This document shows positions 11,320 through 27,626 of a stretch of DNA of 34,705 nt, piece after piece. The notes beneath the pieces are model-generated. The model saw nothing but the letters and a program-made list of their open reading frames with translations. It had not been told where the DNA came from and did not search any database. The position numbers and the translations under genes are program-made. Source of the stretch: a virus. How positions within the stretch are numbered: position 1 is the stretch's first letter; every line of letters begins with the position of its first letter. The stretch covers positions 1 to 34,705 of the IMG/VR virus record IMGVR_UViG_3300000101_004790; one strand, given 5' to 3'.

Positions 11320-12675
11320 ATGACAGATAGATTAAGTTCATACGGATATGCCTTTCAGATAAAAGTTATAACTGCTTTATTAACTGATAAAAGCTTCTTA
11401 CAGCAGATATCAGATATAATGGTTCCAAAATATTTTGAATCAGAAGCCAATAACTGGATAGTCGACATAATCCTTGAATACCATAAAGAATATAAATCTT
11501 CGCCTACATTAGAAGTAATGAAAGTGAAGATGGAAGATTTGGATCAAGAAGTGCTCAAAACTTCAGTAATTCAACATCTTAAGGATGCATGGCGATATAC
11601 CGATGCGCCAGATTTAGAATATATCAAAGACCAAGCTTTAGATTTTTGTAAAAACCAAGAAATTAAAAAAGCAATTTTATCATCGGTAGAATTGCTTAAA
11701 CATGGTAAGTATGAAGAAATAAAGGCCGCGGTAGATGATGCATTAAAATCCGGAGGAGATAAGGATATTGGTCATGAATATATGACTAATATTGAAGAGC
11801 GTTATAGCGAAGCAGTGCGCCATGTACAAGAAACCCCATGGGAAGTAATTAACGAATTAACAGATGGTGGTATAGGTAAAGGTGAACTAGGAGTTATGGT
11901 AGCACCAGCTGGTATTGGTAAGTCTTGGGCATTAATGAATGTAGGTGCTAATTTAGTTAAGAAAGGAAAGACGGTTGTACATTATACATTAGAATTAAAT
12001 GAGGCATATGTAGGATTGCGGTATGATTCTGTTATAACAGGTATAGCTCAACAAAACTTGAAACATTATATGGATGAAGTTAAAGAGCAGTTATCTAAAA
12101 TAGATGGTGAATTAATTATTAAACATTATCCTACAAAATCTGTATCTGTAATGGGTATACGTTCTCATATTGAAAAATGTATAATGCAGGATAAGAAACC
12201 AGATATGGTCATTGTTGATTATGCAGATTTGTTGAGAGGCCATGGCCAAGAAAAACGACATGAGTTGGAAGGTATATATGAAGATTTGAGAGGTATGGCA
12301 GGAGAATATGAAATTCCAGTATGGACAGCATCTCAAGCAAATAGATCAGCCTTAGAAGAAGATGTAATTGATGCTAGTAAAGTTTCTGAATCATATGGTA
12401 AGGTAATGGTTGCAGATTTCATATTATCATTATCTAGAAAAGTTCAGGATAAATTAGCAGGAACTGGTCGTTGGCATGTCATTAAAAATAGATTTGGACC
12501 AGATGGTATAACATTACCTAGTAAGATGAATACATCAAATGGCCAATTTGATATATATACAGATACATCTATACAAGGAAAAGATACTCAAAAGGCAATG
12601 GATAATGGTAATGAATTAGCAAGGCAAATGCTAGCCAGAAAATACAATGAAACCCAAAATACTGGTTTTGAATAA
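11320..12675 (+). CDS. Replicative DNA helicase, DnaB/T4 gp41-like
   Basis: A 451-residue hexameric helicase that unwinds DNA ahead of the fork. The N-terminal helical domain (about 1-150) is followed by the RecA-fold motor. Walker A is at about 195-202 (APAGIGKS), then the DnaB-type GKTVVHYTLELNE strand, Walker B with MVIVDYADLL, and WTASQANRSA with the sensor Gln. KNRFGPDG near the end is the arginine-finger region. Length is close to T4 gp41 (475). A predicted leaderless start is suggested by the promoter position. It is the last gene before the RNR leader region. Confidence 0.92.
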   Translation: MTDRLSSYGYAFQIKVITALLTDKSFLQQISDIMVPKYFESEANNWIVDIILEYHKEYKSSPTLEVMKVKMEDLDQEVLKTSVIQHLKDAWRYTDAPDLEYIKDQALDFCKNQEIKKAILSSVELLKHGKYEEIKAAVDDALKSGGDKDIGHEYMTNIEERYSEAVRHVQETPWEVINELTDGGIGKGELGVMVAPAGIGKSWALMNVGANLVKKGKTVVHYTLELNEAYVGLRYDSVITGIAQQNLKHYMDEVKEQLSKIDGELIIKHYPTKSVSVMGIRSHIEKCIMQDKKPDMVIVDYADLLRGHGQEKRHELEGIYEDLRGMAGEYEIPVWTASQANRSALEEDVIDASKVSESYGKVMVADFILSLSRKVQDKLAGTGRWHVIKNRFGPDGITLPSKMNTSNGQFDIYTDTSIQGKDTQKAMDNGNELARQMLARKYNETQNTGFE

Positions 12676-12723
12676 AAGTTTAAAAAAAGTAATCAAAATC
12701 CGGCTAGCTAATGCAGCGACTGG

Positions 12724-12803
12724 TATATTTATATGAGAAAACGTAGAATAAGTAGTCTTTAAAGACTACATTTTTACACTAAAGAAATAATTATAAGGAA
12801 AAT
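12724..12803 (+). promoter_or_regulatory. RNR leader: -7-like box, 9-codon ORF and hairpin
   Basis: The gap before the RNR gene holds TATATTTATA at 12724-12733, a possible 9-residue ORF at 12733-12762 (MRKRRISSL), and a perfect 18-bp palindrome at 12752-12769 (GTAGTCTTT and its complement) followed by ATTTTT. The palindrome plus T-run looks like a weak intrinsic terminator or attenuator. The ORF stop codon falls inside the hairpin. No cobalamin riboswitch core was recognised. Confidence 0.4.
12752..12775 (+). terminator. Candidate intrinsic terminator/attenuator hairpin
   Basis: An uninterrupted inverted repeat at 12752-12769, able to fold as a 6-7 bp stem with a short A/T loop, followed directly by ATTTTT to 12775. 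It lies between the helicase stop and the RNR start, so it could end the replication operon or modulate RNR transcription. Stem GC content is low, so efficiency is uncertain. Confidence 0.45.
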
Positions 12804-14660
12804 ATGGAAGTATCAAACAAAATTTTATCAGATATTACAGTATATATGAAATATGCTAAATATGTGCCAGATTTAGAACGACGTGAAACATGGGATGAAT
12901 TAGTATCGCGTAATAAAGCAATGCATCTTAAGAAATATCCTACACTCGTTAAAGAAATTAATGATGCATATAAAATGGTATATGATAAAAAAGTACTTCC
13001 GTCAATGAGGTCAATGCAATTCGCTGGCAAGCCAATTGAAATATCTCCGAATAGAGTTTATAATTGTGCATATGTTCCTATTGATGACTGGAGAGCCTTT
13101 TCAGAATCAATGTTTCTATTATTAGGCGGGACAGGTGTAGGATATTCAGTACAGCAACACCATGTTGATAATTTACCAGAAATTAGAAAACCTAATTATA
13201 AAAGAGCTAGAAGATTTTTAATTGCAGATTCAATTGAAGGATGGGCAGATGCAGTTAAAGCATTGATGAAAAATTATTTTACTGGCGGCTCTCATTTAAA
13301 ATTTGATTATTCAGATATTAGAGCAAAAGGCGCGAGGCTAGTCACTTCAGGTGGAAAAGCACCAGGCCCTCAACCCCTCAAAGAATGTTTAGTAAAAATT
13401 GAAGGATTGTTAAAAGAAAAATCTGATGGTGATAAATTATCAACATTAGAAACGCATGATATTGTATGCCATATTGCAGATGCAGTATTAGCGGGTGGTA
13501 TTCGTAGAGCCGCATTAATTAGTTTGTTCAGTGCTCATGATGAAGAAATGATATCATGTAAATCAGGCAATTGGTGGGAATTGAATCCTCAGAGAGGTAG
13601 AGCAAATAATTCAGCTGTATTAATGCGACACAAAATTACCAAAGAATTCTTCACAGATTTATGGAAACGTGTAGAATTGTCCGGAGCTGGTGAGCCTGGA
13701 ATATATCTATCAAATGACAAAGATTGGGGAACTAATCCGTGTTGTGAAATTGCATTACGTCCATATCAATTCTGTAACTTATGTGAAGTAAATGTATCTA
13801 ATATTGAATCTCAAGAAGATTTTGAAGCTAGAGTAAAGGTAGCATCGTTTATAGGAACACTCCAAGCCGGATATACTGATTTTCATTATTTAAGACCAGT
13901 ATGGCAAAGAACAACAGAAAAGGATGCTTTAATTGGTGTATCAATGACCGGTATAGGATCTGGTATGGTATTAGGTTATGATATGAAATCTGCGGCTAAA
14001 ATTGTAAAAACAGAAAATGCAAGAGTAGCAGAGTTAATCGGAATAAACAAATCAGCTAGAACGACTACCGTTAAACCGGCCGGAACAACTTCGTTAACAT
14101 TAGGAACATCATCAGGTATTCATGCATGGCACAACGATTATTATATCAGACGAATCCGTGTTGGTAAGAATGAATCTATTTATAAACATTTAATGGAACA
14201 CCACCCAGAATTGGTAGAAGATGAATATTTTAGACCTCATGATACCGCAGTTATTTCTGTACCACAAAAAGCTCCAGATGGCGCAATAATGAGAACTGAA
14301 TCTCCATTCCAATTACTAGAAAGAGTTAAAAAGGTAGCACAAGAATGGATTAAGCCCGGGCATAGATCTGGTAATAACACCCATAACGTATCAGCTACAA
14401 TATCATTACGAGACCATGAATGGGATGCAGCCGGAGAATGGATGTGGGATAATAAAGAGTCTTATAACGGATTATCAGTATTACCTTATAACGGAGGAAC
14501 ATATACTCAGGCACCATTTGAAGATATCACAAAAGAAGAATATGAACGTCTTATGGGATCGTTGACATCTATAGATTTAACAGAAATAATTGAAACTGAA
14601 GATGAAACTGATTTGAAAGGTGAATTGGCATGTGCCGGAGGAAGTTGTGAAATCACATGA
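12804..14660 (+). CDS. nrdJ: Adenosylcobalamin-dependent ribonucleotide reductase (class II)
   Basis: A 618-residue enzyme making deoxyribonucleotides from ribonucleotides using coenzyme B12, independent of oxygen. The cysteines match the monomeric Lactobacillus-type enzyme: C88 (VYNCAYVP) and C324 as the redox pair, C313 (NPCCEIA) as the thiyl-radical position 11 residues before C324, and C610/C615 in the C-terminal CAGGSC, spaced as in the family. E315 follows in NPCCE. Also present: MRSMQFAGKPIE near 72 and LLGGTGVGYSVQQHH. It is shorter than the 739-residue L. leichmannii protein. It needs host-supplied cobalamin, since no B12 genes are nearby. Confidence 0.92.
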   Translation: MEVSNKILSDITVYMKYAKYVPDLERRETWDELVSRNKAMHLKKYPTLVKEINDAYKMVYDKKVLPSMRSMQFAGKPIEISPNRVYNCAYVPIDDWRAFSESMFLLLGGTGVGYSVQQHHVDNLPEIRKPNYKRARRFLIADSIEGWADAVKALMKNYFTGGSHLKFDYSDIRAKGARLVTSGGKAPGPQPLKECLVKIEGLLKEKSDGDKLSTLETHDIVCHIADAVLAGGIRRAALISLFSAHDEEMISCKSGNWWELNPQRGRANNSAVLMRHKITKEFFTDLWKRVELSGAGEPGIYLSNDKDWGTNPCCEIALRPYQFCNLCEVNVSNIESQEDFEARVKVASFIGTLQAGYTDFHYLRPVWQRTTEKDALIGVSMTGIGSGMVLGYDMKSAAKIVKTENARVAELIGINKSARTTTVKPAGTTSLTLGTSSGIHAWHNDYYIRRIRVGKNESIYKHLMEHHPELVEDEYFRPHDTAVISVPQKAPDGAIMRTESPFQLLERVKKVAQEWIKPGHRSGNNTHNVSATISLRDHEWDAAGEWMWDNKESYNGLSVLPYNGGTYTQAPFEDITKEEYERLMGSLTSIDLTEIIETEDETDLKGELACAGGSCEIT

Positions 14661-14714
14661 TTGGATTCGAACCTTATATTATAGAGAATTCATCTGGAAA
14701 AAGCAGTAAAAAGA

Positions 14715-14746
14715 TTTGGTAGAGTCAAATATATTTCTTATATTTA
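14715..14746 (+). promoter_or_regulatory. Bacteroidota-type phage promoter 3 (que/folE operon)
   Basis: TTTG at 14715-14718, 20 nt, TATATTTA at 14739-14746, with the full TTTGGTAGA and TTTCTTATATTTA context. It is the only promoter visible before the run of ten closely packed genes from 14769 to 20725, which includes QueD, QueE, GroES, FolE, the phosphoribosyltransferase and DNA polymerase. Confidence 0.85.
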
Positions 14747-14768
14747 TATAAATTAAAAAGTAAGAGAT

Positions 14769-14951
14769 ATGTCAAAAGAAGAACAAGTGCTAGAATTAAT
14801 TAACGGTTATGCAGAAGGTTTAATTACAGATGAGGAATGTAATTATCAAAGCGATTTAATAATGAATGAAATATCAGTTATTGATGGAATGGTAACCGAC
14901 CATGAAACTGATACTCGAGTTCCAAAAGAAGAATATTTAAAAAACAATTAG
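14769..14951 (+). CDS. Small acidic hypothetical protein
   Basis: A 60-residue acidic protein with no recognised domain; it looks helical (EEQVLELINGYAEGLITDEE). The ATG follows AAAAAGTAAGAGAT. It is the first gene downstream of promoter 3 and is separated from the next gene by four bases. Confidence 0.5.
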   Translation: MSKEEQVLELINGYAEGLITDEECNYQSDLIMNEISVIDGMVTDHETDTRVPKEEYLKNN

Positions 14952-14955
14952 TTAC

Positions 14956-15252
14956 ATGGAAAATTTTAAATTTAAAGATGTCGAAATGACATTTGATTAT
15001 CGTAAATTAGCTTACTATGATCAAGAGTATTTACGAACAATGGCATTTGAAACAGTTAATGATCGATCGGTAAAATTCAGTGGCCTTGTATTTACAGATT
15101 ATTATCCATATGCGGATAACTTTACTATGTTTACAAGTGAAACGGAATTATTAAATTATATGGCTGATTTTGCAGGTCATATTGCTAAAACAGCATCTCA
15201 TTTATTACATGGTAAAAAGTATTGGATGGCATGGACATATTCAAAGGAATAG
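14956..15252 (+). CDS. Hypothetical protein upstream of QueD
   Basis: A 98-residue aromatic-rich protein (many Tyr and Phe), not recognised. No membrane segment. It lies four bases after the preceding small gene and one base before the QueD start, so it belongs to the deazaguanine operon; whether it takes part in the pathway cannot be told from sequence. Confidence 0.55.
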   Translation: MENFKFKDVEMTFDYRKLAYYDQEYLRTMAFETVNDRSVKFSGLVFTDYYPYADNFTMFTSETELLNYMADFAGHIAKTASHLLHGKKYWMAWTYSKE

Positions 15253-15253
15253 T

Positions 15254-15718
15254 ATGAGTAAATATCAATCAACAAAATTATTTGATGGATTTAGTTGCTG
15301 TTTTAGACAATGGAAAGCAGAAACTACTCATTGTAGATTTTTACATGGATATGGAGTATCATTCCGAGTTACTTTTGAAGGTGATCTAGATGAACGTAAC
15401 TGGGTTTGGGATTTTGGTGGCATGAAACGAGCCAAAACATTAATAGATGGTATGCAACCAAAAGCATGGATGGATTATATGTTTGACCATACTGTAATTG
15501 TAGCAGAAGATGATCCTGAATTGATGAAGTTTGAAAATTTACATAGAAGAGGTGTTATTCAATTAAGGCATGTAAAAGCTACAGGTGCAGAAAAATTCGC
15601 AGAATTTATATTTCATAAATTAAATAAATTTGTAACAGAAGAAACTAATAGTCGTGTAAAAATAGTTCAAGTAGAATTTATGGAACACGGTAAAAATACA
15701 GCAATATATACGGAATAA
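15254..15718 (+). CDS. queD: QueD-like 6-carboxytetrahydropterin synthase
   Basis: A 154-residue member of the 6-pyruvoyl-tetrahydropterin synthase family, which converts dihydroneopterin triphosphate to 6-carboxytetrahydropterin, step two of 7-deazaguanine synthesis. ATG 15254 was chosen because the in-frame extension to 15170 overlaps the upstream gene and is not QueD-like. Catalytic C27 (THCRFLHGYG), the DH pair in MFDHTVIVAEDD and the Glu near the end (VEFMEHG) are kept. Two of the three classical zinc His residues are replaced: the His in the FxAAHR motif by F17, and the second His of HGH by Y33; H31 remains. Extra Cys residues at 15 and 16 and H26 might substitute. Next to QueE and close to FolE, which supports the role. 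Confidence 0.82.
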   Translation: MSKYQSTKLFDGFSCCFRQWKAETTHCRFLHGYGVSFRVTFEGDLDERNWVWDFGGMKRAKTLIDGMQPKAWMDYMFDHTVIVAEDDPELMKFENLHRRGVIQLRHVKATGAEKFAEFIFHKLNKFVTEETNSRVKIVQVEFMEHGKNTAIYTE

Positions 15719-15721
15719 GTT

Positions 15722-16495
15722 ATGAATAAACGAATAAAAGATTATGATAAGGTACTCCCTATCAATGAATTGTACAGATGTGTGCAATCTGAAGGAAGTC
15801 GATTTGGTAGACCAACTATTGCGATACGAGTAACTGGTTGTACTCATCGATGTTATTTTGGTGAAGGAGGTTGGTGCGATTCATGGTATTCATCTATACA
15901 TCCAGAAAAAGGTAAGTATTCATTTAATGATATTGTTAAAATATATGATGATAATCCTCATGTAAAAGAAATGATGTTAACTGGTGGATCTCCGACAATG
16001 CAGCCAGCATTAGTAAACGAGTTAACACATTTTGCGCATGAAAGAGGCATTATTATTACTATCGAAACTGAAGGATCTCATTTTATTGAAACCGATTATC
16101 CTATTGATCTTATTAGCCTTAGTCCTAAGTTCTCTAATTCCATTCCTGTTATTGGGGCTGTTACTCCTGGTGGTCAAGTTGTTGACCAAAAATTTATAGA
16201 CGTCCATAATAGGAAACGTTTAAATACAGATGCAATACGTCAAATGATATTATTCCATGACGATTATCATTACAAGCCTGTGTGGGATGGTACTACGGAT
16301 GGCCTTAAAGAAATTGAAGAATATCGTATAGAATTAGGCATTCCGAAAAATAAAACATATATTATGCCGGCGGGTGATACGCGAGAACAATTAATTAAAA
16401 TGTATCCGATGGTATTTGAATTATGTGCCGAACATGGTTATAACATGACAGGTAGAGATCATATCATAGCATTTGATACAGAAAGAGCAGTCTAA
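15722..16495 (+). CDS. queE: QueE-like 7-carboxy-7-deazaguanine synthase (radical SAM)
   Basis: A 257-residue radical SAM enzyme that contracts 6-carboxytetrahydropterin to 7-carboxy-7-deazaguanine. The opening YRCVQSEGSRFGRPTIAIRV matches QueE, which starts with a Gln-Ser/Gly-Glu-Gly substrate segment. The cluster cysteines are C40, C44 and C52, a CX3CX7C spacing instead of the usual CX3CX2C, because a Gly-rich insert (FGEGGW) precedes the third Cys. The SAM-binding MMLTGGSPTMQ and the ETEGS strand follow. It lies three bases after queD. Length is typical of the family (about 220-260). Confidence 0.88.
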   Translation: MNKRIKDYDKVLPINELYRCVQSEGSRFGRPTIAIRVTGCTHRCYFGEGGWCDSWYSSIHPEKGKYSFNDIVKIYDDNPHVKEMMLTGGSPTMQPALVNELTHFAHERGIIITIETEGSHFIETDYPIDLISLSPKFSNSIPVIGAVTPGGQVVDQKFIDVHNRKRLNTDAIRQMILFHDDYHYKPVWDGTTDGLKEIEEYRIELGIPKNKTYIMPAGDTREQLIKMYPMVFELCAEHGYNMTGRDHIIAFDTERAV

Positions 16496-16506
16496 AAGGA
16501 AATTAT

Positions 16507-16809
16507 ATGAAAATGAAACCAATGGGAGATTTTGTACTCCTGAAAACTCATGAAGGTCAAGAAACGACCAAAGCAGGTATTATTTTAACTAGTAATACTA
16601 CAAATCATGTTAAAGCAGATGTGATAGCTGTAGGACCTGGATTATTTACACAAACGGGTGACCGCATTCCAATTACAGTGACAGTAGGTGATACGGTCAT
16701 GGTAACTAATCAATCTGCTAAGCCACATAATCAAATCAAATTAGAAGAAGATACATATGTACTTCTCAGAGAATCAGAAATAGTAATGGTATCAATAAAA
16801 GAGGTTTAA
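16507..16809 (+). CDS. groES: Co-chaperonin GroES
   Basis: A 100-residue co-chaperonin that caps the GroEL ring. The N-terminus KMKPMGDFVLLK, the mobile loop at residues about 15-34 with the GroEL-binding tripeptide IIL at 25-27, and the ADVIAVGPGL strand are diagnostic; VGDTVMVTNQS corresponds to the roof-side domain. Length is close to host GroES (97) and less than T4 gp31 (111). It sits inside the queE-folE gene run, about 9.2 kb from the phage GroEL at 26001, so the two chaperonin genes have separate promoters. An AAAAGGAAA ribosome-binding stretch precedes the ATG. Confidence 0.9.
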   Translation: MKMKPMGDFVLLKTHEGQETTKAGIILTSNTTNHVKADVIAVGPGLFTQTGDRIPITVTVGDTVMVTNQSAKPHNQIKLEEDTYVLLRESEIVMVSIKEV

Positions 16810-17469
16810 ATGAAAGACTCGGTAAATTTAGAACTAGTAAAGGCAGGTTTTGCAAACGGTGTAGCAAAAACCCGGCCCTTGACAGAGAGTGAAAAACAGA
16901 TAATGATTCAAACTGCGGCTTTTGCCTTTGGAGATTTTTTGGATGCATTGCAATGTGATTGGCGTAATGATCCAAATTCGGATAATACACCAACGCGTGT
17001 AGCAAAGGCATATGTTAATGACTTATGGGCAGGTAGGTATGAGGCTCCACCATCGATAACAGCATTTCCTAGTGATGGATATGATGGCATAGTATTCGAA
17101 GGTGGCATTCCTTTAACGTCTATGTGTTCACATCACCATCAAACTATAATGGGTAAAGTCCATGTTGCATATATTCCAGGTAAAGATAGCAAAGTAATTG
17201 GTCTTTCCAAATTGAATAGGCTGGTGGAACATTTTGCTCGAAGAGGTGCGATACAAGAGCAATTAACAGTTGCAATACATAATGCAATAACGCAGATTAT
17301 TGCTGATAATAATGGTGTAGCAGTAATGATAGAAGCTACTCATAATTGTGTGCAATGTCGTGGAGTGAAGCATGGCGGTGCTAGTATGAAAACTAGTAAA
17401 TTAACTGGTGCATTTAAAGATGATGCAGCGACTAGAAATGAATATTACGAATTTGCTAAAGGATATTAA
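16810..17469 (+). CDS. folE: GTP cyclohydrolase I (FolE)
   Basis: A 219-residue enzyme converting GTP to 7,8-dihydroneopterin triphosphate, the first step towards 7-deazaguanine bases (and folate). The zinc ligands are present: C106 and H109 in MCSHHH, and C180 in HNCVQCRGV. The PTRVAKAYVNDLWAG helix, the KVIGLSKLNRLVEHFARR segment and QEQLT follow the family exactly. Length equals the E. coli enzyme (222). Its ATG directly follows the groES stop, and its stop overlaps the phosphoribosyltransferase start (TAATG). Confidence 0.95.
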   Translation: MKDSVNLELVKAGFANGVAKTRPLTESEKQIMIQTAAFAFGDFLDALQCDWRNDPNSDNTPTRVAKAYVNDLWAGRYEAPPSITAFPSDGYDGIVFEGGIPLTSMCSHHHQTIMGKVHVAYIPGKDSKVIGLSKLNRLVEHFARRGAIQEQLTVAIHNAITQIIADNNGVAVMIEATHNCVQCRGVKHGGASMKTSKLTGAFKDDAATRNEYYEFAKGY

Positions 17470-17975
17470 TGGAAATTTTAATACCAGAATATAAAATAGA
17501 ACGGCGTGTAAGAGCTTTAGCTCATGCAATATCAGAAGAGCATAAAGCTTCTGGTAATTCATATCCACCAGTGATGATTTGTGTATTAAATGGTGGTTAT
17601 GCATTTTTTGCAGACCTAATGAAAGATATGGGTATTGATGTACAAATGGATTTTGTTCGAGCCAAGTCATATGAAGGTCAAGACAACTCCGGAGGGGTTA
17701 AGATTACCAAAGATTTGGAAATTCATTGTAAAGGTAAACGTGTTTATATCATTGATGATATAGTAGATACCGGAGCAACTATGATGGAGATATTAAGACG
17801 AGTTGATGATATGACGCCTGATGAAGTTAAAGTAGTTACATTACTTAAACGTAAAGAAGATAGTCCACCAGTAGATCATTATTGTTTTGAAATTGATAAG
17901 GAATGGGTAGTAGGTTATGGATTAGATGATAATTCATTGAAAAGAAATTATAGAAACATATATAAGATTAACTAA
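17469..17975 (+). CDS. hpt: Hypoxanthine/guanine phosphoribosyltransferase-like
   Basis: A 168-residue type I phosphoribosyltransferase. The PRPP-binding motif is at about 92-105 (VYIIDDIVDTGATM, with D96/D97), and the N-terminal PVMICVLNGGYAFFADL supplies the LNGG loop. The C-terminal HYCFEIDKEWVVGYGLD segment matches bacterial Hpt (Val/Asp purine-binding region). It would turn hypoxanthine or guanine plus PRPP into IMP or GMP. It is coupled by TAATG to folE upstream and to DNA polymerase downstream. In this setting it may recycle guanine released by base exchange or supply GTP to FolE; use of a deazaguanine base is also conceivable. These roles are inference. Confidence 0.85.
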   Translation: MEILIPEYKIERRVRALAHAISEEHKASGNSYPPVMICVLNGGYAFFADLMKDMGIDVQMDFVRAKSYEGQDNSGGVKITKDLEIHCKGKRVYIIDDIVDTGATMMEILRRVDDMTPDEVKVVTLLKRKEDSPPVDHYCFEIDKEWVVGYGLDDNSLKRNYRNIYKIN

Positions 17976-20455
17976 TGTATCAAGCAGTTGCATATCATAA
18001 ACGTACTAATAAAGTACATATCTGGGATGATAAGAATGGTCATTTCACTATTAATTACAAGCCATATGCTTATCGTAAAGCTACGTATGGAAATATGGTG
18101 GCATTAGATGGCCAAACTGTACAACGTGTAGAAAATCCTGATCGCGAAGAACGTGGATTATACGAAGCAGATATCAATCCGGAAATGCGTACTTTAATCG
18201 ATACATATACAGATTCGGACGAAGTATCGGTAGGCCATAGAACATTGTTTATTGATATTGAGGTAGATATCGCATCTGGATTTCCTACTCCGGAAGAAGC
18301 TCAAAATGAAGTTACTTCCATTGCAATATATGACGAAGCAGGTGATCAAAGACATGTATGGATATTAGATAAAGATAATGTAGTTGAAAACGTATCTAAA
18401 CCAGGATATGAAGTAGTATCATGTAATAATGAGCATACTTTATTACAAAAATTCTTATACAAATATTATGAGATACAGCCTACCATTATAACCGGATGGA
18501 ATATTGATTTCTTTGATATACCATATCTTTATAATCGTATGGTACAAATATTAGGCGAAGAACAGGCTAGATCATTATCTCCTATCAAAGATGTCATTTG
18601 GTTAAAACATAGAAACAGATATCGTATATCCGGAGTATCATGTTTAGATTATATGGCATTATATAAGAACTTTACATATTCTCAAGAGTCAAGTTATTCA
18701 TTGGAAGCTATATCTCAGAAAGAATTAGGTAAAGGTAAAATGAAGTATGAAGGTACATTAGATGACCTCATGCGTAATGATATTCAAGGTTATATTGATT
18801 ATAACATGAATGATGTGGATCTGGTTTGGGAAATTGATCAAAAAATGAAGCTGATTGATTTGGCTCGTGGTATATGTCATAAAGGGCATGTTCCTTACGA
18901 AGACTTCTTATTTCCAACTAGATACTTAGATGGTGCTGCATTAACATATATGAAGCGTATGAACATTGTATCTCCTAGCCGTCCGCCTAGGTCTAATGAA
19001 GAATTAAATTTATTAGGAGCATATGTCAAGCCACCAAATGCTGGTCGTTATAAATGGGTATATGACCTTGATTTAACATCATTATATCCTAGTATCATCA
19101 TGACACTTAATATATCACCAGAAACCAAAGTAACTAAGTTAGAAAAATTTGATCCTAAGGCATATGTTAAGAATACCGGGACTCATTATTCAGATGAATG
19201 GAACGGTTGGGAAACATCTCAAGACTTAAGAAAATATCTAGAATCAAATAAATATTCAATAGCAGCAAATGGAGTCGTATATGATACTCAGATAAAAGGA
19301 TTCCTGCCATCTATCCTGGATAAATGGTTTAATGAGCGTGTTGAATATAAAAACTTAAGAAAGAAGTATGAAAAGGAAGGAGATGAAGCTAAAGCAGAAT
19401 ATTTTGATAGGATGCAGTTAGTGACTAAGATTCTTCTTAACTCATTCTACGGAGTACTAGGTAACCCTAGCTTCCGGTTCTTTGATCCAGATAATGCAAT
19501 TGCAATTACAAGTACTGGTCAGCAATTAATTAAGTTCACTGCCGATATTGGTAACCAGTTTTACTTTAAAGAGTTAGGAAAAAAGAAAGATTATAATATA
19601 TACATTGATACAGATTCTGTATTCTTTTCATCATTACCATTAATAGAAAAACGGTATCCTGATTATGATATTACAGATGAGAAGTTTATGTCTGATAAGA
19701 CAATTGAAATAGCGGACGAAGTTCAAGGCTTTATGAATAAATCATATGATATATATGGTAAGAAATTTCATAATGTTGATACTCATAGATTTGATATCAA
19801 GAAAGAAAATGTGGCTAAAGCAGGATTATGGATTGCTAAGAAGCGTTATGCTCAATGGATAATTAATGTGGAAGGCCATACTGTATCAAAACTAGACGTG
19901 AAAGGTTTGGATGTGGTACGATCATCCTTTCCACCTTCATTTAGAAAGTTCATGGCAGAGGTATTAGAGGACATGTTAAATGACATTGATAAACCAGAAT
20001 TGGATCAGAAGATATTAGATTTTAAAGAACATATGAAGACATTGGAACTGATAGATGTCATGTTCCCAATTGGAGTTAAAAATGTTAAAAAATATATACG
20101 TAAAGGTGATAAGCCATTTGCGGTCCGTATGAAAGGTACTCCGGTCCATGTTAAGTCTGCGCTAAATTATAATGACATGTTAAAGCATCATAAAATTAAA
20201 ACTATACGTGGCATTATAAATGGAGAAAAGATTAAATGGACATACCTTAAAAATAATTCAATGGGATTAGATACTATAGCATTAAAAGGATATGATGATC
20301 CAAAAGTAATTGCAGACTTTGTACAAGGCCATATAGATTATGATAAAGTATTTAAATCAGCATTTGCAAATAAGTTAAACGATTTTTATAGTGCTATGAA
20401 TTGGGGATTGATCCCAGAAAATAATAATTTAGGAAAGTTTTTTGCATTCGGCTAA
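17975..20455 (+). CDS. Replicative DNA polymerase, family B (T4 gp43-like)
   Basis: An 826-residue polymerase with proofreading. Exonuclease residues: D94/E96 (LFIDIEVDI), D178 (GWNIDFFDIPYLYNR) and D280 (YNMNDVDLV). Polymerase motif A is DLDLTSLYPSI with D366; motif B is KILLNSFYGVLGNP; motif C is YIDTDSVFF with D545 and D547. The C-terminal NLGKFFAFG resembles the clamp-binding tail of T4-like polymerases. Slightly shorter than T4 gp43 (898). No intein or split is seen. Coupled by TAATG to the phosphoribosyltransferase gene. Confidence 0.95.
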   Translation: MYQAVAYHKRTNKVHIWDDKNGHFTINYKPYAYRKATYGNMVALDGQTVQRVENPDREERGLYEADINPEMRTLIDTYTDSDEVSVGHRTLFIDIEVDIASGFPTPEEAQNEVTSIAIYDEAGDQRHVWILDKDNVVENVSKPGYEVVSCNNEHTLLQKFLYKYYEIQPTIITGWNIDFFDIPYLYNRMVQILGEEQARSLSPIKDVIWLKHRNRYRISGVSCLDYMALYKNFTYSQESSYSLEAISQKELGKGKMKYEGTLDDLMRNDIQGYIDYNMNDVDLVWEIDQKMKLIDLARGICHKGHVPYEDFLFPTRYLDGAALTYMKRMNIVSPSRPPRSNEELNLLGAYVKPPNAGRYKWVYDLDLTSLYPSIIMTLNISPETKVTKLEKFDPKAYVKNTGTHYSDEWNGWETSQDLRKYLESNKYSIAANGVVYDTQIKGFLPSILDKWFNERVEYKNLRKKYEKEGDEAKAEYFDRMQLVTKILLNSFYGVLGNPSFRFFDPDNAIAITSTGQQLIKFTADIGNQFYFKELGKKKDYNIYIDTDSVFFSSLPLIEKRYPDYDITDEKFMSDKTIEIADEVQGFMNKSYDIYGKKFHNVDTHRFDIKKENVAKAGLWIAKKRYAQWIINVEGHTVSKLDVKGLDVVRSSFPPSFRKFMAEVLEDMLNDIDKPELDQKILDFKEHMKTLELIDVMFPIGVKNVKKYIRKGDKPFAVRMKGTPVHVKSALNYNDMLKHHKIKTIRGIINGEKIKWTYLKNNSMGLDTIALKGYDDPKVIADFVQGHIDYDKVFKSAFANKLNDFYSAMNWGLIPENNNLGKFFAFG

Positions 20456-20476
20456 ATATTCAAAAAAAGGAATATT

Positions 20477-20725
20477 ATGGAAACATTAATTACAGTTTTA
20501 AGTACCATTGGGGTTGGAGCGTTATCGTTTGCAGTTTCAAGAGTGATAAGGTTGGCCAGACAGGTTAATGAGTTGAAAGCACATCAAGAGAATAGTGATA
20601 TGGCTCTTGAAAATTCATCTAGAGATTTCTTCGGAAGTTTAGATGGATTAACTTCTTCTATAGATAGAAGATTTGATAAAGTATGGGCAGATGTTCATAA
20701 TTTAAATAGTAAAAAAAGTAAATAA
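20477..20725 (+). CDS. Small single-pass membrane protein with coiled coil
   Basis: An 82-residue protein. Residues about 4-24 form one hydrophobic segment (LITVLSTIGVGALSFAVSRVI), followed by a basic turn and a heptad-like helix (VNELKAHQ... then DGLTSSIDRRFDKVWADVHNL). A membrane-anchored coiled coil is the clear reading. Function unknown; holin/spanin-like or an anchor for a phage complex are guesses. It follows the polymerase by 21 bases with AAAAAAAGGAA before the ATG. Confidence 0.6.
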   Translation: METLITVLSTIGVGALSFAVSRVIRLARQVNELKAHQENSDMALENSSRDFFGSLDGLTSSIDRRFDKVWADVHNLNSKKSK

Positions 20726-20741
20726 CATTTAATTAAAAACA

Positions 20742-20773
20742 TTTGGTTGTTTGCAAAAACTTTCTTATATTAA
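20742..20773 (+). promoter_or_regulatory. Bacteroidota-type phage promoter 4 (GT-dpdA-clamp operon)
   Basis: TTTG at 20742-20745, 20 nt, TATATTAA at 20766-20773. The -33 side reads TTTGGTTGTTTGCAAAA, a variant shared with promoter 6 (TTTGCAAAA), and the -7 side is the common TTTCTTATATT. It heads a run of seven genes to 25941. Confidence 0.82.
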
Positions 20774-20789
20774 TAAAAAATAAAAAGAT

Positions 20790-21209
20790 ATGTACGGAAA
20801 AAGTTACTGGTATGGTAAAGAGGTAGAAGGCAGGTTGTCTGATATCGAAACGGTTTTTGTTAGAGGTCAATTACCTAAAAATTACAAAGAATATCCTCAT
20901 GTTTATTTTACAATTGAATATATTGAAATGTGTTGTGTACATGAGAATTGGGATGATATCCATATGATATTGACTACTAATCAATATGTAACAATAGAAG
21001 CTAATAAAGGTACAATGGATAAAATTCCAATGTCTATCTTTAACAGAGTTCATGTGATATATAGAATTCAAGATGAGAATTTAGCAAAGCTAAAGAATAC
21101 AGATACATTATCGATTGACGCTGGATGGTATAGAGTACATCAGATTACAAAATGCAATATGATGGAAATTAATCCAGATGATTATAAATTTGATAGAACA
21201 AAAGAGTAA
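20790..21209 (+). CDS. Hypothetical protein, head of the GT-dpdA operon
   Basis: A 139-residue protein with a mixed alpha/beta look, not recognised. It begins MYGKSYWYGKEVEGRLSDIETVF and has two Cys in EMCCVHENWDD. No membrane segment. It starts one leader after promoter 4 and ends one base before the glycosyltransferase start. Co-expression with the glycosyltransferase and DpdA makes it a candidate accessory factor for DNA modification, but nothing in the sequence proves it. Confidence 0.6.
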   Translation: MYGKSYWYGKEVEGRLSDIETVFVRGQLPKNYKEYPHVYFTIEYIEMCCVHENWDDIHMILTTNQYVTIEANKGTMDKIPMSIFNRVHVIYRIQDENLAKLKNTDTLSIDAGWYRVHQITKCNMMEINPDDYKFDRTKE

Positions 21210-21210
21210 T

Positions 21211-22416
21211 ATGAAAAGAAATTTATTTTATTTTGGCCTTGAACCTTTAAAGGCTAGGTATACATATCAGTTATGTAAAGAATGGATGCCAAAGACTTTT
21301 GCAGAATATCCAGATCTTAATTTTGTAGATATTGAAGGAGAGTTTGATCCGGATTGTGAAATTAAGGTAGGTGCGGTATTAGATGCAATTGGTAGAGGTA
21401 AATATTGTTTATCTCAATGTCAAAACTTCTTAAACCTACTGTATAATGACAAAGTACAGGATGGTGATATAATATTCTTGCAAGACTATTGGACACCAGG
21501 AATTGAAGCCATATGGTATGCATTAGACCTATATGGCTATAAGGATGTGAAAGTGTATACAATGTGTCATGCGCAATCAGTTGATGAATATGATTTCACA
21601 TATCCAATGCGTAATTGGATGCGTCCTTATGAATTAGGATTGGATAAACGATTGACTGGTATATTTGTAGGAAGTACAATTCATAAAGAACAACTTCGTG
21701 AAGCAGGATTTGAAGCTCCTATACATGTTGTATCATTGCCAATACATTTAGAAGCTACTCATGATGTATTAGAAGGATCTGCAGAGCTTGATAAGAAAAA
21801 TGTAATTGTATATTCATCCCGGTTAGATAAAGAAAAGAATCCTTTCTTTATGATGAGAGTAGCTGAACAATTTTTAAATGAAAATCCAGATTATGAGTGG
21901 CATGTTACCACTTCTGGTAAATCGTTTAGAAGCATGTTACCTGGAGTCTTAGATGCAATGAATGAATTAGCTCATGAGCAGCCTAGATTCAAATTGCTAT
22001 CCGGTTTAACTAAACAAGAATATTATACCGAGTTAGCTACATGTAAAGTGCAATTTAATTCATCATTACAAGATTATGTATCATGGACAGTAATTGAATC
22101 GACTACATTTGGTGCTGATATAGTATTTCCAGATTTTAGAAGTTTCCCAGAATTTATCGATCATGACAGATTATATAAACCATTTGATGTGCAGTCCGCA
22201 GTAGATACCATATGGGATGCTATCAATGATCCTAGGACACATTTTGATATTGGTAATACATCTGACCTAGGTAGAAGAATGGAAGGATATATTATAGCAA
22301 ATGACTATGATAAAGAACTTAATATATGGCATGAAAAAGAATATTGTCAAGAATTATTATATCAAGATTTTGATAATAAAATAAAAGAACGAACAACTCA
22401 AATGGAATTATTTTAA
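21211..22416 (+). CDS. GT-B glycosyltransferase next to dpdA
   Basis: A 401-residue glycosyltransferase-4-like protein. The start ATG 21211 follows the upstream stop by one base; the longer frame from 21178 overlaps the upstream gene. The C-terminal Rossmann domain has NVIVYSSRLDKEKNPFFMM (the usual start of the GT4 sugar-nucleotide half), WHVTTSGK, the LSGLTKQEYYTEL helix and the VSWTVIESTTFGADIVFPD acidic motif (E in place of the E-x7-E first Glu). The N-terminal domain has DIIFLQDYWTPG and a TMCHAQSVDEYD segment. It overlaps dpdA by one base (TAATG). Acceptor unknown: the modified base in DNA, or a glycan as for the cluster at 30378. Confidence 0.75.
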   Translation: MKRNLFYFGLEPLKARYTYQLCKEWMPKTFAEYPDLNFVDIEGEFDPDCEIKVGAVLDAIGRGKYCLSQCQNFLNLLYNDKVQDGDIIFLQDYWTPGIEAIWYALDLYGYKDVKVYTMCHAQSVDEYDFTYPMRNWMRPYELGLDKRLTGIFVGSTIHKEQLREAGFEAPIHVVSLPIHLEATHDVLEGSAELDKKNVIVYSSRLDKEKNPFFMMRVAEQFLNENPDYEWHVTTSGKSFRSMLPGVLDAMNELAHEQPRFKLLSGLTKQEYYTELATCKVQFNSSLQDYVSWTVIESTTFGADIVFPDFRSFPEFIDHDRLYKPFDVQSAVDTIWDAINDPRTHFDIGNTSDLGRRMEGYIIANDYDKELNIWHEKEYCQELLYQDFDNKIKERTTQMELF

Positions 22417-23600
22417 TGAAAGATTTGATTTATTACCCGTCATTATCTGCAGGAGGATGTGCAGGAGACTTCAAGAAAAACAAAGAAGTTAAGCCTGGAC
22501 TTACATGCAGATTTTATGATAAAGAATTTCCAGAACCATGGAGACATCCATATTTCCTAATTACGGCCGGCCACCATTACAAATGGATGGATGCCAGAGA
22601 TAGATATGGATTAGATGATGATGTATTAGTATTAGGAGATTCAGGAGGATTCCAGTTAGCTACTGGTGCCATTAAATGGGATCCTGCGTTTAAGAAGACT
22701 ATATTTGATTGGTTAGAAGCTAATTGCGACTTAGGTGTTAACTTAGATATCCCGCCGCGTGCGAAGTATGATGGAAAGTTTTACGAATGTATGGACATTA
22801 GTTATGATAACTTTACATATTTCGCAGATAACCAGACTGGTAAATGTAAATTCTTAAATGTTATTCAAGGTAACAATGTTGAAGAATATGAGGCTTGGTA
22901 TCAAAAGATGAAAGACTTTGAATTCAATGGTTGGTGTATTGGAGGTGCTCAAAAGCGCGTTACCATGTTTATGTCTGCCTTAGTTCCTATGATTAAAAAT
23001 AGAGAATTTGAAAAGGTTCGTAATCAGTTTATACACGTATTAGGTATATCAAAGATATCTGATTTCTTTATGTTGAGTTTCCTTCAAAAGATGGTAAACA
23101 AATATCATGGAGGTAGAATACAAGTATCTACAGATTCATCATCGCCAGGTTTATATCCTGTATATGGAACATATCTGCATTCACCTCAATTGAGTAAAAT
23201 GACCTTTACGGATTTATATTTTCCAAAAGGAGAAAATTTACCTTACAATGCAGATGATTTAGTTCCTAATCCATTAGGTCATCCAGTATCAGAAGGATTT
23301 ACGTTTGGTGATGTATCGAATTATAAAGGCGATGTTACAATGAAAATGACATTGAACAATTTATTTGTATTTAATGATACAGTTAAGCAAGTAGAAGAAA
23401 TTGTGAAATGTCATAATGAATTGTTACAAACAGTAGTTCCAAGAGACTTCTATTCAGTGTTAATGAGCATGGAAGAGATGTTTAAGGATCCAGATAAGGC
23501 TATACATATCTATAACAAGAATAGACAGTTATATGATAGGTTTGGTGGTAGTACAAGAGATTTAGTAAATAATGAAGTGTTTAATCAATTCTTCGAATAA
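22416..23600 (+). CDS. dpdA: DpdA-like DNA guanine transglycosylase (TGT superfamily)
   Basis: A 394-residue TGT-fold enzyme. The hallmark DSGGFQ lies at 75-80 (general acid/base D75), substrate-site D111 is in NLDIPP, then NVIQGNN, NGWCIGGA and HVLGIS follow the TGT order (VQG, IGG, MGVG), and the nucleophile region is STDSSSPG with D240. TGT enzymes swap guanine for a 7-deazaguanine base; the DpdA branch acts on DNA. The C-terminal CxCx2C zinc site of tRNA enzymes is not visible, as is common in DpdA. The presence of FolE, QueD and QueE in the same phage favours DNA over tRNA as substrate. Coupled to the upstream glycosyltransferase gene. Confidence 0.85.
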   Translation: MKDLIYYPSLSAGGCAGDFKKNKEVKPGLTCRFYDKEFPEPWRHPYFLITAGHHYKWMDARDRYGLDDDVLVLGDSGGFQLATGAIKWDPAFKKTIFDWLEANCDLGVNLDIPPRAKYDGKFYECMDISYDNFTYFADNQTGKCKFLNVIQGNNVEEYEAWYQKMKDFEFNGWCIGGAQKRVTMFMSALVPMIKNREFEKVRNQFIHVLGISKISDFFMLSFLQKMVNKYHGGRIQVSTDSSSPGLYPVYGTYLHSPQLSKMTFTDLYFPKGENLPYNADDLVPNPLGHPVSEGFTFGDVSNYKGDVTMKMTLNNLFVFNDTVKQVEEIVKCHNELLQTVVPRDFYSVLMSMEEMFKDPDKAIHIYNKNRQLYDRFGGSTRDLVNNEVFNQFFE

Positions 23601-23610
23601 AAGAGAACAA

Positions 23611-24327
23611 ATGGAAAAGAGAAAATTAACTAGTTTTATTGACAAGTATTATTTAGCAGGAAGTGCTAATTCAGTAGGTTTAAATGTTAAAGACAAAACA
23701 TTGTCATGTGAGTTTATTACAGATGATCAGAACGTTGTTGGTTCAGTATCAATGAACGATTTTGAAGTAGAAGATGGTACATTAGGAGTATATACAACTT
23801 CTCAATTAACAAAACTGTTAACTGCATTAGATGAGAATATTGATGTTAAAGTTAATAAAGCAGATGATGCTGCATTTTCAATCAATGTTGCTGATAAGAC
23901 GACCAATGTAACCTTTATGTTAGCTGATTTGTCAGTTATTAGACAAGTCCCTCAAATGAAAGGCCTTCCTGATTTTGGTGTTAAAATTAAATTGACAAAA
24001 GACTTTGCAGATAAGTTTATTAAATCAAAGAACGCGTTGCCTGAAACTGAAAACTTTGCGGTAGAAAGTAATAATTCTGGTACTAAGATGATATTGAATT
24101 ATTCAACTCTTAATACCAATAGAATTACATGGCCAATCGTTCCAGAAAAGTCAGAAACATTGAACGCAACTTGTTTTTCAGCTAATCTATTCAAAGAAAT
24201 TTTATCTGCTAATAAAGATGCAGATGAAGGTTATATTGAAGTATCTCAAGCCGGTCTAGCTAGAGTATCATTTGTTGGTAAGACATATACGTCCACATAT
24301 TATTTAGTACAATTACAAACAGCTTAA
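23611..24327 (+). CDS. Sliding clamp, T4 gp45-like
   Basis: A 238-residue processivity clamp. ATG 23611 was chosen because the frame upstream (to 23572) overlaps the end of dpdA; an AAAAGAGAA stretch precedes it. The overall pattern fits gp45: short N-terminal helix (LTSFIDKYYLAG), alternating strands, IRQVPQMKGLPDFGVKI in the middle, a second-domain helix (KDFADKFIKSKNALPE), and a C-terminal strand FVGKTYTSTYYLVQL. Length is close to T4 gp45 (228). It precedes dUTPase and the gp44-like clamp loader, the T4 order 45-44-62 with insertions. Confidence 0.85.
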   Translation: MEKRKLTSFIDKYYLAGSANSVGLNVKDKTLSCEFITDDQNVVGSVSMNDFEVEDGTLGVYTTSQLTKLLTALDENIDVKVNKADDAAFSINVADKTTNVTFMLADLSVIRQVPQMKGLPDFGVKIKLTKDFADKFIKSKNALPETENFAVESNNSGTKMILNYSTLNTNRITWPIVPEKSETLNATCFSANLFKEILSANKDADEGYIEVSQAGLARVSFVGKTYTSTYYLVQLQTA

Positions 24328-24328
24328 T

Positions 24329-24766
24329 ATGAAAGTAAAATTTAAAAAATTAGTCGATACGGCAGTTACTCCTAGTTATGCAAAGCCTGGAGATGCTGGA
24401 ATGGATATAACTACTATTGCTCATAAGATTAATACGGAGCATAATTTTATAGAATATCATACCGGGCTGGCATTTGAATTGCCAAAAGGATATGTAGGAT
24501 TGTTATTTCCTAGATCATCAGTTTCTAAAAAAGACATTAGTTTAGCAAATTGTGTAGGAGTAATGGATTCAGGGTTTAGAGGTGAAATAACATTTAGATA
24601 TAAATTCGATCGTGATGAATATTTTGCAAATGTAAAACGATATGATGACGGAGACCGTATCGGTCAATTGGTAATAATGCCTTACCCAGAAATTGAATTA
24701 GAAGAAGCTAATGAATTAGCCGATAGTTCAAGAGGTAAAGGCGGCTATGGTTCAACAGGTAATTAA
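24329..24766 (+). CDS. dut: Trimeric dUTPase
   Basis: A 145-residue dUTP diphosphatase that keeps uracil out of DNA and yields dUMP. All five motifs are present: PGDAGMDI, PRSSVS, the GVMDSGFRGEI loop (D80), GDRIGQLVI, and the C-terminal SSRGKGGYGSTG lid. In motif 3 the usual Tyr that stacks on deoxyribose is F83. It starts one base after the clamp stop (TAATATG) and lies seven bases before the clamp loader gene. Confidence 0.94.
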   Translation: MKVKFKKLVDTAVTPSYAKPGDAGMDITTIAHKINTEHNFIEYHTGLAFELPKGYVGLLFPRSSVSKKDISLANCVGVMDSGFRGEITFRYKFDRDEYFANVKRYDDGDRIGQLVIMPYPEIELEEANELADSSRGKGGYGSTGN

Positions 24767-24772
24767 ATAAGT

Positions 24773-25702
24773 ATGTTTGGAAATCAAGAAAATACATTAT
24801 GGGTGGAAAAGTTCCGTCCAGGTACATTAGAAGGATATGTAGGTAATGAACATATCATAGACAAAGTTAAATTATATTTAGAAAATGGCGATGTGCCACA
24901 TCTATTATTTTATGGACAAGCAGGTACTGGTAAGACTACGCTTGCAAAGATTATAGCAAATGGATTAGATGCTGATATCATGTATATCAATGCTTCGGAT
25001 GAAAACAATGTGGATACTGTGCGTACTAAGATAAAGAATTATGCAAGTACTATTGGATTTAAAAAATGGAAGATTGTTATATTAGATGAGGCAGATTATA
25101 TGACTCCTAATGGCCAAGCTGCATTACGTAATCTAATGGAAACATTTTCTAAAACTACTAGATTTATACTAACATGTAATTATGTTGAAAAGATTATTGA
25201 TCCTATACAATCTAGATGCCAAGTATTTGGTATTACGCCTCCTAACAAAAAGGAAGTTGCTAAACGTATAGTTGAAATCCTTAATGAATTACAAGTTAAA
25301 TATGATAACAAAGACCTAGTTACTATTATAAACGCCGGCTATCCTGATATAAGGAGGGTGTTAAATGGCTGTCAAAGACAGGTTATAGATAATGAACTAA
25401 AAATTGATGCGACTAGTGTTATACAAGCAAATTATATGACCAAGTTGTTAGATCTTTTAAAATCTAGTTCTGATAAGAAAACAGCATTTAAAGATATTAG
25501 ACAATTGATAGCAGATAGCAAAGTAAAAGACTTTACAGCTTTGCATAAATACCTGTTTGATGAATTAGACAATTACGCAACTGGTCATATAGCCAGTATC
25601 ATATTAATATTAGCTGAATCGCAATATCAAGATTCATTTGCAGTTGATAAAGAATTGCATATCATGTCTACAATTGTAAAAATGTTAAATGAATTAAAAT
25701 AA
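24773..25702 (+). CDS. Clamp loader large subunit, T4 gp44/RFC-like AAA+ ATPase
   Basis: A 309-residue AAA+ ATPase that loads the sliding clamp. The N-terminal WVEKFRPGTLEGYVGNE is the RFC box; Walker A is at 48-55 (GQAGTGKT), Walker B at 102-108 (VILDEADYM with D105, E106), sensor 1 in FILTCN, and the SRC motif at 147-149. Length is near T4 gp44 (319). It follows dUTPase and is coupled (TAATG) to a small unknown gene. The partner gp62-like subunit lies 1.9 kb downstream, beyond groEL. Confidence 0.93.
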   Translation: MFGNQENTLWVEKFRPGTLEGYVGNEHIIDKVKLYLENGDVPHLLFYGQAGTGKTTLAKIIANGLDADIMYINASDENNVDTVRTKIKNYASTIGFKKWKIVILDEADYMTPNGQAALRNLMETFSKTTRFILTCNYVEKIIDPIQSRCQVFGITPPNKKEVAKRIVEILNELQVKYDNKDLVTIINAGYPDIRRVLNGCQRQVIDNELKIDATSVIQANYMTKLLDLLKSSSDKKTAFKDIRQLIADSKVKDFTALHKYLFDELDNYATGHIASIILILAESQYQDSFAVDKELHIMSTIVKMLNELK

Positions 25703-25941
25703 TGAATGATCGTATATTCATAATAATTAAATATCATAGAAACCCGGATGGCAATTCAAATAAAGCTTTACCAGTATTAATGATGGATAATGATGACCAT
25801 CCATTAGAATTTGATCGATCAGGGTCGGCAAATGAAATGGTAGACATACTCAATATGAATAGCAACCAAGGATTTCATTACGAGATAAAAGAATTGGGAG
25901 TCCGATATACAAAAATATCTACAAACAATAAAGAAGAATAA
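25702..25941 (+). CDS. Small hypothetical protein after clamp loader
   Basis: A 79-residue soluble protein, not recognised; hydrophobic N-terminal strand (RIFIIIKYHRN), then a polar middle and an LGVRYTKIS strand. Start overlaps the clamp loader stop by one base. Its stop is immediately followed by promoter 5. Confidence 0.55.
   Translation: MNDRIFIIIKYHRNPDGNSNKALPVLMMDNDDHPLEFDRSGSANEMVDILNMNSNQGFHYEIKELGVRYTKISTNNKEE

Positions 25942-25991: not shown

Positions 25992-27626
<1,635 letters not shown>

Follow-up and report, generated by a model that had tools for sequence, protein, structure and literature searches.

A QueC-less 7-deazaguanine locus in an IMG/VR virus that may write a sugar-bearing guanine analogue into DNA

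Eight 7-deazaguanine derivatives are reported from phage DNA (Cui 2023), and none of them is known to bear a sugar. In T-even phages a glycosyltransferase (GT) decorates a modified base after replication (glucosyl-hydroxymethylcytosine). In the Dpd pathway of phages nt-1 (DpdA2) and 9g, FolE, QueD and QueE supply the deazaguanine and an enzyme with the fold of tRNA-guanine transglycosylase (TGT) inserts it; the accessible part of Hutinet 2019 (PMC6884629) describes DpdA, DpdA2 and possible 7-carboxy-7-deazaguanine (CDG) in the QueC-less Mycobacterium phage Bipper. Here we analyzed IMG/VR virus record IMGVR_UViG_3300000101_004790, a stretch of 34,705 nucleotides that is called the window throughout, in which FolE, QueD, QueE and a DpdA-type transglycosylase are encoded as in nt-1 and 9g (Table 1). 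In contrast with those phages, no QueC or Gat-QueC was found in the window, its DpdA appears to belong to another group, a GT is added, and its relatives carry a small family, phrog_17812. The locus very likely serves to make CDG and to place a deazaguanine in DNA; our best explanation of the whole, with a probability of about 0.55, is a QueC-less hypermodification of guanine that includes glycosylation.

Table 1. Coordinates of the features discussed, all within one gene run of the window.
Feature	Position	Strand	Basis or remark
QueD-like 6-carboxytetrahydropterin synthase, phage type	15254..15718	+	PF01242 1.3e-15; phrog_2389 6e-42
QueE radical-SAM CDG synthase	15722..16495	+	phrog_2076 4e-48; TIGR03365 8e-14; PDB QueE 6nhl 1.4e-6
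GroES	16507..16809	+	PF00166 4.5e-19; within the run, no pathway role proposed
FolE GTP cyclohydrolase I	16810..17469	+	PF01227 1.4e-46
Hypoxanthine-guanine phosphoribosyltransferase (HPRT)	17469..17975	+	TIGR01203 147.9 bits vs. cut-off 150
Family B DNA polymerase (PolB)	17975..20455	+	PF00136 1.7e-35
orf139	20790..21209	+	Directly before the GT
GT4-type glycosyltransferase	21211..22416 (likely start 21211; longer open reading frame from 21178)	+	Fold, adjacency, motifs
DpdA-type guanine transglycosylase, 394 aa	22416..23600	+	Residues invariant in 17 sequences; Foldseek 7ui4 2.4e-6

FolE, QueD and QueE, which a first-pass annotation of the sequence had recognized, were clear by family models and are encoded together; they would convert guanosine triphosphate (GTP) into CDG. 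QueE displayed the CX3CX7C cluster motif, and the closest matches of both QueD and QueE came from Cellulophaga and Flavobacterium phages (62–66% identity). The canonical QueD motif is HGH and that of the window is HGY. The idea that this QueD is odd or inactive was dropped, since HGY appeared in all 20 aligned phage QueD rows (immuto, phi38:2 and a PhiXhv phage included) and QueC was over the cut-off in immuto, phi38:2 and PhiXhv-15. As a side observation, queD looked as if swapped between lineages: six close relatives (loci L004, L007, L015, L017, L037, and L069), with QueE and FolE 77–98% identical to those of the window, had a QueD of ~42% identity, and in L041 and L057 queE differed as well as queD.

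QueC was searched for with PF06508, and control genomes matched in both sets of relatives. The window, in all likelihood a fragment (related records reach 127–153 kb), gave no match, and there was none over the cut-off in the 28 records behind the DpdA loci (many of them fragments, largest 127 kb; three distant relatives, L077–L079, are included, one with a 15-bit match, G008) or in 12 further related records (many fragments, largest 153 and 140 kb). The absence of QueC from the window, as reported in the first-pass annotation, was thus borne out, and no gene of the preQ0/G+ branch (QueC or Gat-QueC) was found in these records. The same annotation had proposed a pathway that makes CDG and inserts a deazaguanine without QueC, the base being CDG itself, an amidated form or another derivative. 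The pathway is supported; the options offered omitted phrog_17812 and the GT, the two genes most informative about the product. The option of an amidated base is weakened by the lack of any match to PF00310 (glutamine amidotransferase, GATase_2) in 10 related records, partly fragments.

The small open reading frame (ORF) beside or near the GT in phages X1, BUCT-ZZ01, ACP17, Paride, and Phosso proved to be one family, phrog_17812 ("unknown function"), which has 21 or 27 carriers among the phage records, according to the query used, and is located next to or close to GTP cyclohydrolase I in RHph_I1_18, Ahp1, Bakedbeans, D479, and MA9V-3. It was found in 13 of 35 scanned records, including the wider lineage of the window (G001, G029, G030, G031, G033, and G034). 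QueC exceeded the cut-off in one of the 12 named phages with phrog_17812 vs. nine of the 10 without it (Fisher P = 2.9e-4; the 22 named records of the Fisher tests were picked by searches, not at random). We consider it rather likely that phrog_17812 takes the place of QueC and modifies CDG: encoded elsewhere in the longer relatives of this fragment, it would act on the 7-carboxyl of CDG, the likeliest chemistry being decarboxylation to 7-deazaguanine. A CDG decarboxylase named DpdL, with the bases dDG and dCDG, is reported to have been described by Cui in 2023, and phrog_17812 is a good candidate for it. Judged from its sequence the family is perhaps QueD-like: hhalign aligned its C-terminal half with QueD (E 4e-5, probability 70%), six other profiles gave E 0.04 or worse, and its H37/H39 pair was invariant in an alignment of seven. 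In MA9V-3 (L175, 8428–9309) and Bakedbeans (L173, 7212–8363) the annotated ORFs are longer and contain phrog_17812 as their C-terminal part, and the part before it in MA9V-3 looked HNH-like by eye.

The altered base would then be exchanged by DpdA for chosen guanines in phage DNA, post-replicatively. Sequence models of this enzyme were weak (PADLOC DpdA 4e-4; NF041059 1.4e-3, below the curated NCBIfam cut-off) and Pfam gave no match at 0.01. D75, S76, G77, G78, Q80, D111, G152, H207, and D240 were invariant in 17 aligned DpdA proteins; D75, D111, and D240 are presumably the general acid/base, substrate-binding and nucleophile positions of TGT. The best Foldseek match of the AlphaFold model was the DNA preQ0 insertase DpdA (7ui4, E 2.4e-6), and 49 matches at E <= 1e-3 were TGT or DpdA entries, with low TM-scores (~0.32–0.47). 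Because of these invariant TGT residues and the fold search, a DpdA/TGT-type transglycosylase with its catalytic residues was recognized, in agreement with the first-pass annotation.

It is very improbable that this protein is a tRNA-guanine transglycosylase and that the pathway feeds tRNA modification during infection. VIA-align did rank tRNA TGTs at the top (mouse TGT, Z 15.0, root-mean-square deviation 6.9, 294 residues aligned), with the 7ui4 DpdA not among the 50 matches listed, and the NCBIfam model TgtA (4.7e-3) scored close to DpdA (1.4e-3). The zinc motif of TGT, however, begins CxCxxC, a pattern that is absent from the window protein; among 17 other phage DpdA-type proteins only those of GR7B, Aura, and PhiXhv had it. 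By sequence the DpdA profile matched no PDB chain at E <= 1, and identification through PDB sequences was dropped, whereas it did match phage DpdA groups: the nearest was Paride/Phosso/L079 (hhalign 4.9e-35), followed by BUCT-ZZ01/ACP17/X1 (1.4e-6), which is nt-1-like (1.5e-46 to nt-1 DpdA2). Values were 2.3e-3 against nt-1 DpdA2 alone, 0.23 against 9g, and 0.1–0.7 against single sequences of the small DpdA of phiST, immuto, and MA9V-3, which we take to be DpdA3 and to which the sister group Paride/Phosso/L079 aligned at 3.6e-6. Alignment with phage DpdA and with no PDB chain would fit the DNA-acting side. No QueC having been found, this phage does not, from what was observed, produce preQ0 or preQ1 on its own.

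Directly upstream of DpdA lies the GT, overlooked in the first-pass annotation, as was HPRT. Its model (pLDDT 78) has a GT-B fold; BshA GT4 enzymes were nearest among the matches listed (Z 23.2, root-mean-square deviation 3.8, 323 aligned) and Foldseek gave a BshA-like match at 2.2e-11. GT4 enzymes have R...EK and E-x7-E motifs. R204, E208, K209, and E296 were invariant in 27 rows (R-x3-EK motif), and D288-x7-E296 stands at the E-x7-E position, D288 replacing the first E (the distant L078 has E-x7-E), so that fold and motifs both correspond to GT4/GT-B.

All 61 loci that include over 400 nt of DNA preceding DpdA had a GT that ended within 120 nt of it. In a second set, collected with the GT, 21 of the 23 contigs absent from the first set had a DpdA start no more than 300 nt away (36 of 38 with repeats; 18 of the 45 newly numbered loci repeat first-set contigs and were excluded from the former count). 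A tblastn search of 50,697 phage records found GT homologues in 20 of them (11 PA5oct-like phages, Phosso, BUCT-ZZ01, two records of ACP17, X1, and four PhiXhv/Ep032 phages), all with deazaguanine genes: 13 were among the QueD matches listed (60 of 105 records), five more were identified via DpdA matches, the RefSeq copy of ACP17 via phrog_17812, and PhiXhv-12 by annotation, through a neighbor whose PhiXhv-15 counterpart holds a QueC match. The GT precedes DpdA in the window and X1 and follows it in Paride and ACP17; in BUCT-ZZ01 an ORF stands between DpdA and the GT (DpdA-orf-GT), and Phosso has orf-GT with a distant DpdA; the GT was paired with both the BUCT-ZZ01/ACP17/X1 and the window/Paride/Phosso/L079 groups of DpdA. 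This indicated that the GT follows the pathway and not one DpdA group or arrangement, and we are highly confident that it belongs to the deazaguanine pathway. On the strength of this association we lean toward a GT that adds a sugar to the base in DNA once DpdA has inserted it.

An unlikely but serious alternative is a plain modification, in which CDG or 7-deazaguanine is inserted undecorated and the GT has another target, such as glycans of the virion or of the host surface. The window holds further GT-like genes at 30378, 31835, and 33623, and in the relative G001 ORFs resembling sugar-nucleotide enzymes were seen by eye near counterparts of these other GTs; phiST, with phrog_17812 and no QueC match, is outside the 20 records with GT homologues; and CDG was considered for Bipper in the part of Hutinet 2019 (PMC6884629) available. 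The constant placement of the GT by DpdA, in 61 of 61 loci, and its following of the pathway across about six named lineages (our own grouping) speak against an undecorated base, and a control GT of the same phage (31835–33157) tracked the pathway less, as at least four (immuto) of its 12 phage records are QueD carriers, judged by the 60 of 105 QueD records listed. The ORFs of G001 (L108, positions 20001–38600 of this 127-kb relative) look UDP-glucose dehydrogenase-, epimerase-, GDP-mannose dehydratase-, and aminotransferase-like and could supply sugar donors.

Quite improbable, in our view, is a GT whose acceptor is a pterin or deazaguanine precursor in free form, the product being either a small molecule or a base that already bears its sugar when DpdA inserts it. 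FolE makes pterins, and the GT model matched the tetrahydrobiopterin glucosyltransferase 9v0l (Z 20.1) as well as BshA, which uses malate; 9v0l was, however, 42nd among many GT-B entries, and the presence of QueE and DpdA in these cassettes argues for the base and not for a pterin.

In order to cover a wider range of GT loci, metagenomic stretches were scanned with a GT alignment from Paride, Phosso, ACP17, L078, and L079. At least 600 stretches matched, at least 560 of which encode relatives, and the best 80 loci were used. Each of the 80 had at least one further cassette gene (phrog_17812 in 75, FolE in 73, DpdA in 66, QueE in 61); in the 52 loci with at least 3 kb on each side of the GT, the counts were 52 for DpdA, 52 for phrog_17812, 51 for FolE, and 46 for QueE. 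phrog_17812 lay within 310 nt of the GT in 74 of the 75 loci with both. These 80 loci are related to one another and the counts are not independent events, yet the cassette was consistent across them. Tentatively, at somewhat less than even odds, we extend the proposal to many large phages: a QueC-less cassette of FolE, QueE, phrog_17812, DpdA, and GT4, with QueD in many, would write a sugar-bearing 7-deazaguanine into DNA, with phrog_17812 replacing QueC and, in some, a phosphoribosyltransferase recycling guanine.

In 14 of 19 loci, HPRT lay between FolE and PolB. PF00156 was present in eight of 26 records, namely four of the lineage of the window, Paride, BUCT-ZZ01, and immuto, where it lies within deazaguanine clusters, and phiST, where it lies elsewhere. 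Each exchange by DpdA has to set one guanine free; its conversion to GMP and then GTP would feed FolE, and HPRT may in this lineage recycle the displaced guanine.

Several observations weigh against the QueC-less, glycosylated scheme or parts of it. phrog_17812 was found neither in the window fragment nor in a further 11 related records, the largest of 85 kb, and ~39 kb separate it from DpdA in G001; Faecalibacterium phage Roos has it without an annotated pathway gene in the stretch examined, and PhiXhv-15 combines the GT with a Gat-QueC-type gene and lacks phrog_17812. In the same 22 named records the association of GT with phrog_17812 was not significant alone (P = 0.16). The alignment of phrog_17812 with QueD is weak, and no PDB chain matched it convincingly (best E 0.63, a thioredoxin), a route to its identity that was dropped. 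If phrog_17812 decarboxylates CDG, C7 would be left without an obvious handle for a sugar. Sub-cut-off QueC matches occurred in X1 and G008; D479, a phrog_17812 carrier, had a partial QueC-family match over the cut-off, to a PP-loop protein; and four of 20 larger GT-locus records had QueC-family matches of 23–32 bits, each covering less than half of the model, with no match over the cut-off in the remaining 16. The DpdA model is of moderate quality (pLDDT 62, pTM 0.67), and the GT model also resembles enzymes with small acceptors (BshA and 9v0l). In the second GT set the GT was distant from DpdA in L142 and no DpdA was seen in L143, FolE being ~1.5 kb or less from the GT in both. Profiles of QueD and of the window-type HPRT matched in none of the 80 GT loci, HPRT was missing in five of the 19 loci, and PF00156 in 18 of the 26 records.

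Among the described phages closest to this locus are PA5oct/MIJ3/Paride and the Sinorhizobium phage Phosso, with the nearest DpdA group and both GT and phrog_17812; no QueC match was found in Paride or Phosso. They differ in the length of DpdA (540–549 aa in Paride and Phosso vs. 394 aa), in gene order, and in their hosts, Pseudomonas or Sinorhizobium. As far as the accessible text of Iyer 2021 (PMC7824862) goes, PA5oct has a deazaguanine system and no GT is tied to the base. In the accessible parts of two further sources, a 2026 jumbo-phage review (PMC13282480) lists MIJ3 in a group characterized by enlarged tRNA sets, unusual pathways or hypermodification of DNA and does not specify which of these applies to it, and the MIJ3 paper (PMC6892783) makes no mention of deazaguanine or queuosine. 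Bipper and Cellulophaga phage phiST resemble the window in that neither record has a QueC match, and phiST further in its QueD (66% identity), its QueE (62%), and its phrog_17812. Unlike the window, neither is among the 20 records with GT homologues, and their DpdA proteins have no profile similarity to that of the window (E 0.7 for phiST; 0.32, partial, for Bipper). Decoration of the base would work as in T-even DNA, here on guanine and not on cytosine; among the matches listed, BshA-like GT4 enzymes are nearest to the window GT, and membership of the T4 GT families is not claimed.

The window record encodes tail, replication, and nucleotide genes on one strand, and the best match of its polymerase among the 50,697 phage records was Microcystis phage Mel-JY01 (43%). 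The first-pass annotation had gathered QueD, QueE, FolE, and DpdA into a pathway lacking QueC in view, which is supported, and had split it over two operons. Genes on the + strand from 14956 to 24327 are spaced by -1 to 64 nt, and a scan of 12600–25800 showed no terminator-like site on this strand from 12769 to 24886 (four sites observed vs. 3.9 expected by chance); two operons are therefore not supported. Promoter-like sites are present inside the run, which may yet give separate transcripts. A riboswitch was dropped from consideration, as Rfam gave no match in the window at the gathering threshold. The chaperonin pair is split by replication genes, with GroES between QueE and FolE and GroEL at 26001–27626, ~9 kb away. 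Assignment of a host from bacterial and archaeal genome contigs was dropped, since the three matches are probably mis-binned viral contigs; two of them, the short contigs L185 and L186, were binned into one metagenome-assembled genome of Candidatus Nitrosopelagicus and encode the GT of this phage at differing identities (86 and 73%).

orf139 adjoins the GT in 50 of 51 loci of the lineage and had no match at E 0.01 in the 50,697 phage records; that it corresponds to the small ORF beside the GT in named phages was rejected, as hhalign showed no relation and those ORFs form phrog_17812. A PIG-L deacetylase as general partner of the GT was also discarded, being present only in PhiXhv-15 among 13 records. 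In that phage (L086, 9654–12888) a gene annotated as glucosamine-fructose-6-phosphate aminotransferase, with a PF06508 match inside and probably Gat-QueC, is followed by the PIG-L deacetylase and then by the GT; this position of the GT, adjacent to a deacetylase and two genes away from a Gat-QueC-type gene, would fit an N-acetylglucosamine that is later deacetylated. BUCT-ZZ01 (L082, 9007–10350) has a second glycosyltransferase-like gene between FolE and DpdA (PF13692 3.4e-5), and two sugars may be added there.

The pathway is known and its QueC-less, sugar-linked variant is apparently new; glycosylated 7-deazaguanine in DNA was not reported in any title or abstract opening listed by the literature searches, which cover subscription journals thinly, and an earlier report may exist. 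This marine virus of microbes probably exchanges some guanines in its own DNA for a carbon-7 analogue, and the neighboring GT, a companion of these genes elsewhere among viruses, suggests sugar decoration of the inserted base as a later step. Cultured carriers of the cassette are the Synechococcus phage BUCT-ZZ01, whose host is PCC 7942, Phosso, and Paride, with PAO1 as its laboratory host. If the proposal is true, phrog_17812 would gain a candidate function, and many QueC-less phages whose pathway otherwise looks incomplete would be accounted for. A bulky sugar decoration would join guanine-based anti-restriction chemistry as the guanine counterpart of glucosylated hydroxymethylcytosine, and the sugar-bearing base would shield the virus from host defenses.

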